Positions 3,209 through 7,112 of a DNA stretch of 64,000 nucleotides are shown here, piece by piece. The DNA is from an uncultured bacterium (GTDB lineage: Bacteria > Verrucomicrobiota > Kiritimatiellia > PWTM01). The DNA is taken from assembly GCA_938010045.1 (NCBI GenBank), contig CALLFZ010000004.1:92107-156106 (forward strand). Direction: 5' to 3'. The position numbers and the translations under genes were made by a program. The notes beneath the pieces are model-generated. The model searched no databases. It was not told the DNA's origin and worked only from the letters and a program-made list of their open reading frames with translations. How positions within the stretch are numbered: position 1 is the stretch's first letter; every line of letters starts with the position of its first letter.

Positions 3209-3897
3209 CGTACGTTCCCGTTCTCCCAAATTTGTTTCTCTCTCGACGCCGACAAGCGCACGCGCGATCGCGCGCTTTGGACATACAAACATAGCGACAA
3301 ACGCATGTCGAATTGCGGCTCGTGTATTCGAGTTTCAGCGGTGCGATCTGGGGACAGGCACATGGCAGTCGCTTGGGGTCTCCTGCGCCGACTGCGCTCA
3401 GAGAGGTGCCTGTCCCCAACGGCCTCTCTCCGGCGGAGGAGCGCCGGAGTTGCAGGGGGAGGAAACCGTCTGGCCAGCCCTGCGCGCTGAAAAGGCGGCC
3501 TCACGGCTCGCGGCCTTCGGCATGCCCGAATCGTCCGACCGCCCGCGCTTCGATTGCGCGCGTCGGGAAAGTCGTCGAGGCGATCCCGACCGAAGTGCGA
3601 GGTGATGTAGCCGAAGTTCATGCGGTCCTTATCCACCGCGTCCCTACCCGCGTTCAGGCCTGAGTGGTCGAAAATTCTTTTTTGGGGGGAAGTGGCGAGA
3701 AAAACCTGCGAATGGCGCGGGGCGGTGGGATTAACGATGTTCGCCTCCCTCCGCCGACGCCGTTCTGTGCTGCTCATTTTCCACAACAGCGCAATTCGCT
3801 CCCAATCCTAGGGTGAAGATTGACACCCCGAGTGGGTGTATGGTGAACTCATGCTTTGGATAACGGGCTGTAGAACGCAGATTGAGGATTGGGAATT
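3209..3897. other. Intergenic region holding REP copy 2
   Basis: No gene I can support. Besides the REP-like element at 3350-3417 it contains an AT-richer stretch (3660-3900) before the small basic protein gene. TTGACA at 3820-3825 is followed by a small hairpin (CACCC/GGGTG, 3824-3838), but no well-spaced -10 box could be assigned. Several open frames on the minus strand (3205-3786) lack family motifs. Confidence 0.35.
3350..3417. repeat. REP-like palindromic element, copy 2
   Basis: A 68-bp element with ends GGGGACAGGCAC and GTGCCTGTCCCC. It is homologous to copy 1 over its full length and in the same orientation, including the flanking GATC. It lies about 140 bp upstream of the esterase start. 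Two full copies plus stray ends close to a transposase relic fit a REP/REPIN family. Confidence 0.8.
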
Positions 3898-4053
3898 ATG
3901 TCCGCACATTCAAGTTTGAGGATCGGCGGCAAGACCATGGCGAAGCGCAACGTGCTGAAGCGGTTCGAGCGGATTGACGCGCTCATGCGAGCGGGCAAAT
4001 GGAAGCCGGGCGACCGTGCCCTCGGACTGCCCAAAACCAAACCGACCGCCTGA
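3898..4053 (+). CDS. Small basic protein of Chlamydiae/Verrucomicrobia type
   Basis: A 51-residue lysine/arginine-rich protein starting at ATG 3898, with GAGG about 10 nt upstream. The order MSAHSSLR..., KRNVLKRFERIDALM, GKWKPGDRALGLPKTKP matches the small basic protein family I know from Verrucomicrobia, Chlamydiae and related phyla (TIGR04137, as I recall it). Its biochemical role is not established; size, charge and adjacency to an rRNA pseudouridine synthase suggest an RNA- or ribosome-associated job, but that is inference. It overlaps or immediately precedes the next gene, so translation of the two is probably coupled. The family is a strong phylogenetic marker for the source organism. 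Confidence 0.85.
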   Translation: MSAHSSLRIGGKTMAKRNVLKRFERIDALMRAGKWKPGDRALGLPKTKPTA

Positions 4054-4876
4054 CATTCGGCTCCAGCGATTTCTAGCGCAATGTGGCGTCGCGTCGCGAC
4101 GCGGCGCCGTCGAGTGGATTCGCGCCGGTCGAGTGATGGTCAACGGCCGGCCGGTTCTGGAGCCGGGCGCCCGGGTGGATCCGGCGAGGGACGACATCCG
4201 CGTGGACGGGCGCCGGCTGCGTCCGCAGCCTCGGCACTACCTCCTCTTGAACAAGCCCCGTGGTGTGCTGTGCACGTGCCGAGACCCGCAGGGGCGCCGG
4301 ACGATGCTCGATCTTCTGCCGCGCACGTTGGGCGTCCGCCTGTATTCGGTGGGACGGCTCGACTGGGACAGCGAGGGACTCTTGCTGCTCACCAACGACG
4401 GCGAGTTGGCGGCGCGGCTCATTCACCCGCGGTACCATGTACCCAAAGTGTACCGGGTGCGGACCGATCGCCCATTGCCGCGTCCTTGGCTCGCGAGGTT
4501 CATCACGGGGATCGAGTCGGAGGGCGAGCGGCTGCGCGCAGTCCGTGTGCGGCCGCTCGCCGCGGGGCGGGCGGGCGCGGAGTACGAGATCGAGTTGATC
4601 GAAGGACGAAATCGTCAGATTCGTCGCATGGTGGACTGTGCGGGCCGGCGAGTGGTTCGCCTCGTGCGGACGCGGATCGGACCACTCACGCTTGAGGGGC
4701 TCCTGCCGGGCCGATGGCGGCGCCTGAGCGACCGCGAGCTCGAGGCACTGCGGCGAGCGGCCGGCCTCAGCGCGGGTGCAGCACGAGGAAATGCTCCCGA
4801 ATGTAGCGCGCCGCATCTTCGAGCGTTGGAAGAATCTTCGTGCAGTACTTCACCATCCACGGGCTGCACTCCTTAA
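4016..4876 (+). CDS. rRNA pseudouridine synthase (RsuA/RluB/RluE family)
   Basis: Converts a specific uridine in rRNA to pseudouridine. An N-terminal S4 RNA-binding domain (LQRFLAQCGVASRRGAVEWI, GRVMVNG) is followed by the catalytic domain with YLLLNKPRGVLCT, the active-site block VGRLDWDSEGLLLLTND (catalytic Asp in GRLD) and IELIEGRNRQIRRM. The start is unclear. The family normally begins right at (M)RLQRF, but the codon there is ATT (4055-4057), one base after the small basic protein stop. In-frame alternatives are GTG 4016 (used here) and ATG 3974, which would overlap the upstream gene by 38 or 80 nt. The last ~35 residues are not family-like and lie over the 3' end of the convergent next gene. 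RsuA, RluB or RluE specificity cannot be assigned. Confidence 0.85.
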   Translation: MPSDCPKPNRPPDIRLQRFLAQCGVASRRGAVEWIRAGRVMVNGRPVLEPGARVDPARDDIRVDGRRLRPQPRHYLLLNKPRGVLCTCRDPQGRRTMLDLLPRTLGVRLYSVGRLDWDSEGLLLLTNDGELAARLIHPRYHVPKVYRVRTDRPLPRPWLARFITGIESEGERLRAVRVRPLAAGRAGAEYEIELIEGRNRQIRRMVDCAGRRVVRLVRTRIGPLTLEGLLPGRWRRLSDRELEALRRAAGLSAGAARGNAPECSAPHLRALEESSCSTSPSTGCTP

Positions 4877-5186
4877 AGGGGAAGGGCGAGAAGGCAATCA
4901 CGAACTTGTGCAGCACGTGGGCGGCGTAGAACACCTCCATCGCGGTGCCGATGGAGGGTTTGCTGTAGTTGACCAGAATGATGTCGGCGTCGCGCACGTC
5001 CTGCAGATCGAACTCGACGATCTCGTTCGCACTGTCGACCTCACGGTCCTTGAAGTTGCGCCGCATCGGATCGAGGAGCGAAAACTCGCGGCCGAGCAGT
5101 TCGAAGGCGCGCTCGCGCCACGCGCGCGCATGTCCGTCCACCTCGTCCATGATGGGACCGCACAGATAGATCTTTTTGCGTTCCAT
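4767..5186 (-). CDS. Nucleoside 2-deoxyribosyltransferase-like protein
   Basis: A 139-residue protein of the nucleoside 2-deoxyribosyltransferase fold, which exchanges bases on deoxyribonucleosides or hydrolyses nucleotide N-glycosidic bonds in salvage or house-cleaning. Signatures are IYLCGPI at the start, DADIILVNYSKPSIGTAME with the conserved catalytic Glu, and an internal LLDPMRR. The ATG at 5186 has GGAGG 5 nt upstream and is preferred over the in-frame TTG at 5198. The 3' end overlaps the convergent pseudouridine synthase by 110 nt. The substrate cannot be told from sequence. Confidence 0.75.
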   Translation of the reverse strand: MERKKIYLCGPIMDEVDGHARAWRERAFELLGREFSLLDPMRRNFKDREVDSANEIVEFDLQDVRDADIILVNYSKPSIGTAMEVFYAAHVLHKFVIAFSPFPFKECSPWMVKYCTKILPTLEDAARYIREHFLVLHPR

Positions 5187-5243
5187 ATTGTCCTCCAAGG
5201 GAGGTTCGGGCCAGTGGGTCCGAATCGCCTCGGGCGCGGACTC

Positions 5244-7112
5244 TCAGTCAGCGCGGACGGGAGCGCCGGGCAGACCTAGCTCGGCCGCATATGGCATCGA
5301 GGGGCCGAGCCGGCGAGCCAGTGCCACGGCCTCATCCCGGTATCGCGGGTCCCGGGTCCGAATATGTTCGCCGACGAGCCAGGCGAGTTTTTGCCGCACC
5401 CACGAATCCCGAAGCTGAGGACTGCCCGGCGCCCCTGACCGCAGGTTGAGACCGAACACCATATCGTAGGAGTTGGTCCCGGACCGACCAAGAATGCGCA
5501 CGCCCGCTTCTTCCGCGTCTACTGGCACACGACCGACGACCGTGAGAGGGCGATCGAGGTAGAGGTGGGTCAGAAGTTTCGGATAGATCTCCGTCTCGTC
5601 CACGCCCGACCAACGGTGGGATAGCTCAGTCAACACCGGCCGGCTGACTTCCTGGACGAAACTGGCGAGTTCCGACGGGATCGCGTTGAGATCCCGGACG
5701 ATTCGCGAGGCGCCGCGGTTTTTCTGGCTCAAAAAGTCCAGCAGGAAGCGGTTGACGTTCTGGCCGGCGCCGAATGAAAAGACCGAAACGCGGCCTCGGT
5801 TGGCGTCGGAAAACCGCTGGATGATCTCGAAGTTGTCCTGCAACCCCTTGGTGGGGCGTCCGTCGGAGATCATGATGGCAATGACAGGACGGGCGGGATC
5901 AAACGGTAAGGCTTTGATTGCGTCCAAGGCGGCGTAGATGTCGGTCATGCCGCGGGATTCCATTTGTTCGATGAACCATCCGCCTTGCGCCAGCTCGGTG
6001 GGACGCGCGGGGGCCCAGTCATCGAAACACCGGGCGATCACGTCGCGAAACGCAATCAGATTGAAGCGATCCGCGGGTTGGAGGAGGCGGAGCGACGCAT
6101 GGAGCCCCTGCCGGCAAGCGCGGACCCTGGGGGTGGTCATGCTCGCGGAACAGTCCTGTACAAACAGAATGTCGCGGGGCAGCGGCGGCAGAACCGTCTC
6201 GGAGGCGCGGCGAATATCCACCTGAAAGTAGCGCGCGCTGGGCTCGTCGGGCGGCGTCCAGGTGGCGAGGTCGAGCCGGAGTAGGTGTTCGATCGGGGGC
6301 ACGCCGGTGACGTCGGGCCCGCGTTCGCGGACCGCGCCCGCGACTTCGAGGGCCGGCGCGACGGTGGGAGCCATGGGCGGCTGCGTCCCATCGCCGCTGC
6401 CGGACTTTGTCGGGACGGGCAAGGGCGGAGGCGGCGGGGGCGCCATCGGCGGCGGCTCCGGGACGGCCGGCGCAGTTGGCGATCGTTGACTTGCGCCCTC
6501 GGGGCCCGGTGCGGCGCGGCCGGTTCCTGCCGCGATGCCGACCGGGCGCGGCGGCGCGGCCTCCGGATCCAGCAGGGCGGGCGGGATCACGTCCGGCGCG
6601 CGCGCGGATCGCTCCACGGCCGACGCGACGCGGCGAGGCAGCGCCGCCATCTCGTCAGGGATGAGCCCGTCGGGGATCTCGATCCGCTCCATTCGGGGCA
6701 TCCACGCGCGCAGGTCCTCGGCGGAGGCAGGCCGAAGCGGAGGTTCGTCGGCCGGCAGAACAGCCGAGAGATCCGGCGCCAGCCGAGACGGGTCGGAGAT
6801 CGTCGCGGCGGGCGGCGGCACTGCGACCAGTCCGAGGCGCTCCGGTTCGAAGGGCGTCACATCCACTGGGGCGGGCGCCGCTTCGGGCCGCACGCTGTCC
6901 ACTCGCACCGACCGCGCTGGCGCTACGGGCGTCCAGACGGGCGCCGCCACCGGAATGGGCGGCAGCTCGAGAGCGGCCAGCCAGTGCAGCGCGAACGACA
7001 CCCCCACGGCGATCCAGCCCAGCGCCAGCCGCTGACCGCGTTTCGGCGGCTGAAGCAACCATTCGTTGTTGACGACCACCGCGGCCATCGCGCGCCCCCC
7101 GCGCTCAATCAA
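5244..7112 (-). CDS. Membrane-anchored von Willebrand factor A-domain protein with Pro-rich linker
   Basis: About 622 residues. One N-terminal membrane segment ([20 protein letters not shown], residues ~29-48) is followed by a long Pro/Ala-rich linker to ~270, including a run of prolines near residue 225. Then comes a VWA domain with an intact MIDAS site (DCSASM), [11 protein letters not shown] and ISDGRPTKG. Such proteins bind metal ions and mediate protein-protein contacts in the periplasm; no enzymatic role is implied. The TTG at 7112 overlaps the rho stop codon (TTGA). An ATG at 7088 behind a G-rich stretch is an equally plausible start. It is last in the minus-strand run, so expression probably depends on reading through from rho. 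Confidence 0.75.

Follow-up and report, generated by a model that had tools for sequence, protein, structure and literature searches.

A pseudouridine synthase gene that most likely starts inside the gene for the PVC signature protein in a Kiritimatiellia bacterium

Introduction

Several described systems bear on how the second gene of an overlapping pair might be translated. Expression of infC is controlled through an AUU start, and in prfB a programmed +1 frameshift at the shift site CUU UGA C produces RF2. More ordinary are pairs of genes on the same strand in which the start of the downstream gene lies in or next to the end of the upstream gene, and the available part of PMC10666635 gives overlaps of −4 and −1 as by far the commonest. 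According to the available part of a review (PMC12548453), coupling between such genes is best when the downstream start lies from −4 to +3 nt, and work in E. coli found weak or no coupling at a 25-nt overlap. The same portion of the review describes the coat and lysis genes of MS2, with an overlap of −50, in which the terminating ribosome opens structure, and cites them as an earlier example of a long overlap.

The locus described here encodes two proteins whose families have been defined before. The enzyme belongs with the rRNA pseudouridine synthases of the RsuA/RluB/RluE/RluF group, which it resembles in having an S4 and a catalytic domain and in scoring above the cut-off of the family model TIGR00093, and from which it differs in lying under each single-enzyme equivalog cut-off. 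Its partner is the PVC signature protein, a family for which Lagkouvardos et al. 2014 reportedly described nucleic-acid binding. The representative from Chlamydia trachomatis, CT421.2, has ~53 aa and is restricted to PVC bacteria, and the function of the PVC signature protein was given as unknown, in the available part of Gupta et al. (2012; PMC3444138), which is silent on an adjoining synthase. A literature search at the level of titles, outside which Lagkouvardos et al. 2014 fell, found no published account of the pair formed by TIGR04137, the family model of the small protein, and a synthase.

We have analyzed this pair in a stretch of 64,000 nucleotides from an uncultured member of the Kiritimatiellia (Verrucomicrobiota), referred to as the window, and in related genomes. 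Relatives that carry names place the window in or near this class. From sequence comparison we consider it quite probable that the gene for the PVC signature protein is paired here with a single clear RsuA/RluB-type synthase gene that starts at a nested GUG (position 4016), with neither initiation at AUU 4055 nor a frameshift. While the small protein family and the enzyme family are already known, the long, conserved nested GTG start is unusual.

Results

The features of the locus are collected in Table 1. The small gene runs from its ATG at 3898 to a TGA at 4051–4053 and encodes 51 residues, and its product matches TIGR04137 over the whole length, residues 1–49 aligning with positions 1–49 of the 50 in the profile. 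The model is of the hypothetical equivalog type and carries the name 'small basic protein' and the short name Chlam_Ver_rRNA. The initial annotation had called the small protein an orphan, which was wrong, because the protein scores 82.8 bits against this named family, whose cut-off is 50. We also take CT421.2 to be a member of TIGR04137, on the basis of its size and range. The likeness of the window protein to the PVC signature protein is thus one of family-model match, and its size and range agree with those of the protein in the available part of PMC3444138.

Table 1. Coordinates of the features in and around the gene pair (positions are those of the window).
Feature	Position	Strand	Basis
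Small basic protein of 51 aa, TIGR04137 (PVC signature protein)	3898..4053	+	ATG start; NCBIfam TIGR04137 82.8 bits, cut-off 50
rRNA pseudouridine synthase (RsuA/RluB/RluE/RluF group, TIGR00093)	4016..4876	+	S4, PseudoU_synth_2, TIGR00093; most likely start GTG 4016
Putative GTG start codon	4016..4018	+	made by the R-A codons (CGT GCC) of the small protein
ATT codon proposed initially as a start	4055..4057	+	interpreted as a normal Ile codon at the edge of the S4 domain; ATT in 4/56 overlap loci
Nucleoside 2-deoxyribosyltransferase-like gene, not part of the pair	4767..5186	−	Pfam PF05014 36.2 bits, PF15891 33.3 bits

The small protein is near-universal in the phylum of the window, a TIGR04137 match being carried by 375/383 genomes with an estimated completeness of at least 90 percent as against 0/14 control genomes. 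The eight genomes that lack a match at this level of completeness (G009, G015, G118, G212, G243, G343, G367, and G384) reflect either draft gaps or genuine losses. One further locus, L252 (G404:C75), has its TIGR04137 match in a frame that contains one TAG stop. The AF2 model of the small protein is a single helix (residues 5–32) followed by an extended tail, with a mean pLDDT of 77, and a search of solved structures with its sequence gave no match up to an E value of 10.

The synthase, the only TIGR00093 member above the cut-off in the genome of the window, passes that model with 158.2 bits against a cut-off of 109.3, and both of its domains score above their cut-offs (S4, 44 bits with a cut-off of 22.8; PseudoU_synth_2, 82.7 bits with a cut-off of 26.8). 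The closest solved structures are those of RluB (4lab, 126 bits), RsuA (1ksk, 120), and RluF (3dh3, 117). Since the protein misses the cut-off of every equivalog model (RluB 130.9 bits against 290, RsuA 127.7 against 275, RluF 124.1 against 318, and RluE 87 against 284), no target uridine is assigned to it.

At the junction of the two genes the initial annotation had placed the end of the small gene one base before an in-frame ATT, and these coordinates are exactly correct: C 4054 is the sole base that separates the TGA of the small gene from ATT 4055–4057. This ATT, at which the S4 domain of the synthase begins, shares its frame with IRLQRFLAQCGVASRR and with the open reading frame that ends at TAA 4874–4876. 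Upstream of Ile 4055, where the residues of the synthase frame run from PSDCPKPNRPPD, GTG 4016–4018 lies in the same frame and overlaps the small gene by 38 nt, and the only other ATG, GTG, or TTG in the open frame is TTG 3974. A search of Rfam over positions 3600–5300 gave no match up to an E value of 1.

The two genes stay together well beyond the window. A total of 236 loci were collected and reduced to 209 distinct TIGR04137 loci, which are best-scoring or listed matches and thus a non-random sample in which the class of the window is over-represented, and 79/209 of these have a synthase downstream on the same strand, where adjacency means a synthase within ~620 nt of the stop of the small gene. 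The distance from that stop to the synthase is within 30 nt in 38 of the 79, 31–600 nt in 39, and slightly above 600 nt in two. A synthase was not found adjoining the small gene in the other 130/209 loci, five of which have less than 1.2 kb of downstream sequence. The pair is also present in another phylum, which includes G394 and Candidatus Tritonobacter, where a synthase adjoins the small gene in 13 of 27 new loci. TIGR00093 genes above the cut-off number from one to three per genome in the five genomes that were checked, and therefore the adjacency is not explicable by chance. Hence the random adjacency in relatives that the initial annotation had named as evidence against a link between the genes was not seen. 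The ribosome-linked role that it suggested for the small protein is a fair reading of the locus, because the genes remain adjacent in relatives.

Where spaced synthases adjoin the small gene, they have an ATG, GTG, or TTG of their own, either a little upstream of the S4 domain or at the codon aligned with the ATT of the window. We define as overlap loci those with no ATG, GTG, or TTG from the stop of the small gene to this aligned codon, which was located by tblastn and may be one codon off in places. There are 57 such loci, 36 in a first set and 21 in a later set taken from genomes with a window-like synthase and hence from the same clade. The gap between the stop of the small gene and the ATT position is 1 in 27 of them, 4 in 12, 7 in 14, 10 in three, and 3 in one (L324), which means that the synthase is in the +1 frame in 56/57, L324 being the exception. 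At least 13 gap changes are required on a tree built from 116 synthases, and the start category changes at least 10 times among the overlap loci. The overlap label itself needs three changes and is therefore clustered.

The overlap loci have canonical codons at particular places within the small gene. Three such sites, defined after inspection of the first loci, are the R-A codons of a DRxxG motif (site 1, ~−38), the codon preceding the G of this motif (site 2, ~−32), and the N-V of an RNV motif (site 3, ~−101). A fourth site, the ATT position itself, was added post hoc after three misses. In the first 36 overlap loci, site 1 or 2 is occupied in 29 and site 3, in open frame, in the remaining seven, and any of the three sites is occupied in 36/36 compared with 60/170 comparison loci (129 without a synthase and 41 with a spaced synthase; one locus without the anchor motif was left out, and two close loci that have their own start were treated separately). 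The 20 new +1-frame loci gave 16 with site 1 or 2 and one with site 3, or 17/20 at sites 1–3, and the three misses, L311, L314, and L316, have no start at these sites but GTG, TTG, and GTG, respectively, at the ATT position. An in-frame canonical start is thus present in 56/56 +1-frame loci, 45 of them in DRxxG, eight in RNV, and three at the ATT position (GTG or TTG).

This distribution is far from that given by codon usage. When synonymous codons were shuffled with local usage in 400 runs, sites 1 and 2 were occupied in a mean of 23.2 loci (sd 3.2, maximum 32) against 45/56 observed, and sites 1–3 in a mean of 25.7 (maximum 34) against 53/56 observed. Chance often places an in-frame start at some point within the small gene, as the simulated mean is 41.7 with 55/56 observed. 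The sites are also complementary, in that a start at site 3 or the ATT position is present in 11/11 loci without sites 1 and 2 compared with 8/45 others (Fisher p 5e-7), and the key Arg of the start site is CGT in 32/57 overlap loci compared with 25/198 others (p 9e-11), although these p values ignore phylogeny and the overlap-locus counts are not independent, because the loci are related. For comparison, CGT accounts for 20/180 Arg codons in four genes of the window. Shine-Dalgarno-like 4-mers upstream are hardly commoner in overlap loci (32/57) than in others (98/198), 5-mers of this kind are weakly enriched (18/57 against 28/198), and the predicted RNA structure at the nested start does not distinguish overlap loci (unpaired 0.40) from the others (0.40). 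The GTG at the start site of the window is kept in all four members of the genus (L004, L044, L048, and L052). The start sites, the codon simulation, the complementarity of the sites, the CGT bias, and the conservation within the genus together make GTG 4016 the most likely start of the synthase. The initial annotation had listed this codon, with its long overlap, as the alternative, and it is indeed present in frame.

A deoxyribosyltransferase-like gene lies beyond the synthase in convergent orientation, and the two overlap tail to tail by 110 nt (4767–4876); in L044 it has the same length, whereas it measures 62 nt in L052 and 20 nt in L048. Among 261 oriented loci, 19 carry such a gene downstream on the other strand, L033, L039, L040, and L050 being examples. 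Of these 19, 14 are overlap loci and five have the small protein but no adjoining synthase. The co-occurrence of this gene with the small protein suggests a small conserved block.

Discussion

The initial annotation proposed ATT 4055 as a possible start of the synthase by analogy with infC, such that a ribosome ending at the UGA of the small gene would re-initiate one base downstream on AUU. The +1 spacing does fall within the range of −4 to +3 over which coupled re-initiation is efficient, as given in the available part of PMC12548453, and the gap is exactly one base in 27/57 overlap loci. Moreover, L311 and L316 have GTG at this very position, and L314, where the gap is 4, has TTG, with none of the three having a start at sites 1–3, and in L324 only an ATT is available. 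In this last locus (G452:C320) the TAA of the small gene is in the synthase frame and is followed by CCG ATT before the S4 domain, with no canonical start. Since it comes from a draft genome (~86 percent complete, 520 contigs), it may represent either an assembly error or a true ATT start. The position is otherwise GTC, GTT, ATC, CTG, TTA, TGG, TTC, CCG, or TGC, among others, with ATT in 4/56 loci, and the nearest relative reads GTC. The likeness to infC is that an in-frame ATT is present and nothing more, whereas relatives do not conserve the ATT of the window and the frame offers a canonical start. Initiation at ATT predicts neither preservation of the +1 frame nor starts inside the small gene, and both are observed. 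With GTG 4016 kept in 4/4 members of the genus and 53/56 loci carrying an in-frame canonical codon at sites 1–3, we regard an ATT start as very unlikely.

Two other readings place translation of the synthase further upstream or fuse it to the small protein. That the synthase starts at TTG 3974, with an overlap of 80 nt, or that there are multiple starts, is quite as hard to accept, if not a little harder. TTG 3974 shares the open frame with GTG 4016, and in seven of the first overlap loci the far site is the sole one within the small gene, but it is GTG 4016 that is found in 4/4 genus members, the TTG at −80 being missing from the other three. The least probable reading of all is a programmed +1 frameshift late in the small gene that, as in prfB, would yield a small-protein/synthase fusion. 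It would suit the +1 frame, which is kept in 56/57 loci despite at least 13 changes of the gap, and the lack of a start between the genes in those loci. However, nothing like the stop context of prfB is present, as the stop codon and the sense codon before it differ widely from relative to relative. Frameshifting would need neither the enrichment of canonical starts nor the complementarity of their sites, and no in-frame fusion of the two proteins was found among the loci. Two candidates for such a fusion, L171 (510 codons, to the edge of the locus) and L257 (402 codons), appear to be frames left open by chance, the DNA being GC-rich.

We therefore return to a start at GTG 4016, which resembles coupled overlapping pairs in that both genes are on the same strand and the downstream start lies inside the upstream gene. 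The difference is one of extent, as the overlap here is ~38 or 32 nt, and sometimes ~101 nt, compared with 4 nt in pairs of the NTGA type (−4) or 1 nt in those of the TGATG type (−1). The putative start of the window, at −38, is outside the range of about −4 to +3 for termination-reinitiation, and tight coupling is doubtful because coupling is weak or absent at a 25-nt overlap in the E. coli work covered by the available part of PMC12548453. From these published ranges we infer co-expression from one mRNA rather than tight re-initiation.

We propose that the small protein and the synthase would be read from a single mRNA, with the synthase translated from its own canonical GUG at 4016, in the +1 frame and nested within the final 13 codons of the gene for the small protein. 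Every ribosome that completes the small protein would then pass over the start of the synthase, and therefore synthesis of the enzyme would be tied to, and probably held below, that of the small protein. As judged from the arrangement of the genes, ribosomes on the small gene most likely limit initiation of the synthase. The pair would act in the maturation of ribosomes, with an RNA-binding role for the basic protein and rRNA modification by the enzyme. For the small protein itself, we infer a role in ribosome maturation from its neighbor and its basic sequence. A more far-reaching idea, which we offer tentatively and consider rather unlikely, is that the PVC signature protein acts with the RluB/RsuA-like enzyme as a ribosome-assembly factor peculiar to its clade. 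The nested start of the Kiritimatiellia would then be a dosage device, in which a low, fixed ratio of enzyme might be set by the ribosomes translating an abundant basic protein, with the start codon having moved over a long evolutionary time among alternative sites within one and the same overlap.

The long out-of-frame nested start appears to have been kept over a wide evolutionary range even as the start codon changed its place, and nested starts of this type can lead readers as well as gene-calling programs to choose unusual start codons, ATT among them. The interest of the pair lies in the link between the PVC signature protein and rRNA modification, as this protein marks a superphylum and its linkage to one rRNA-modifying enzyme points to ribosome maturation.
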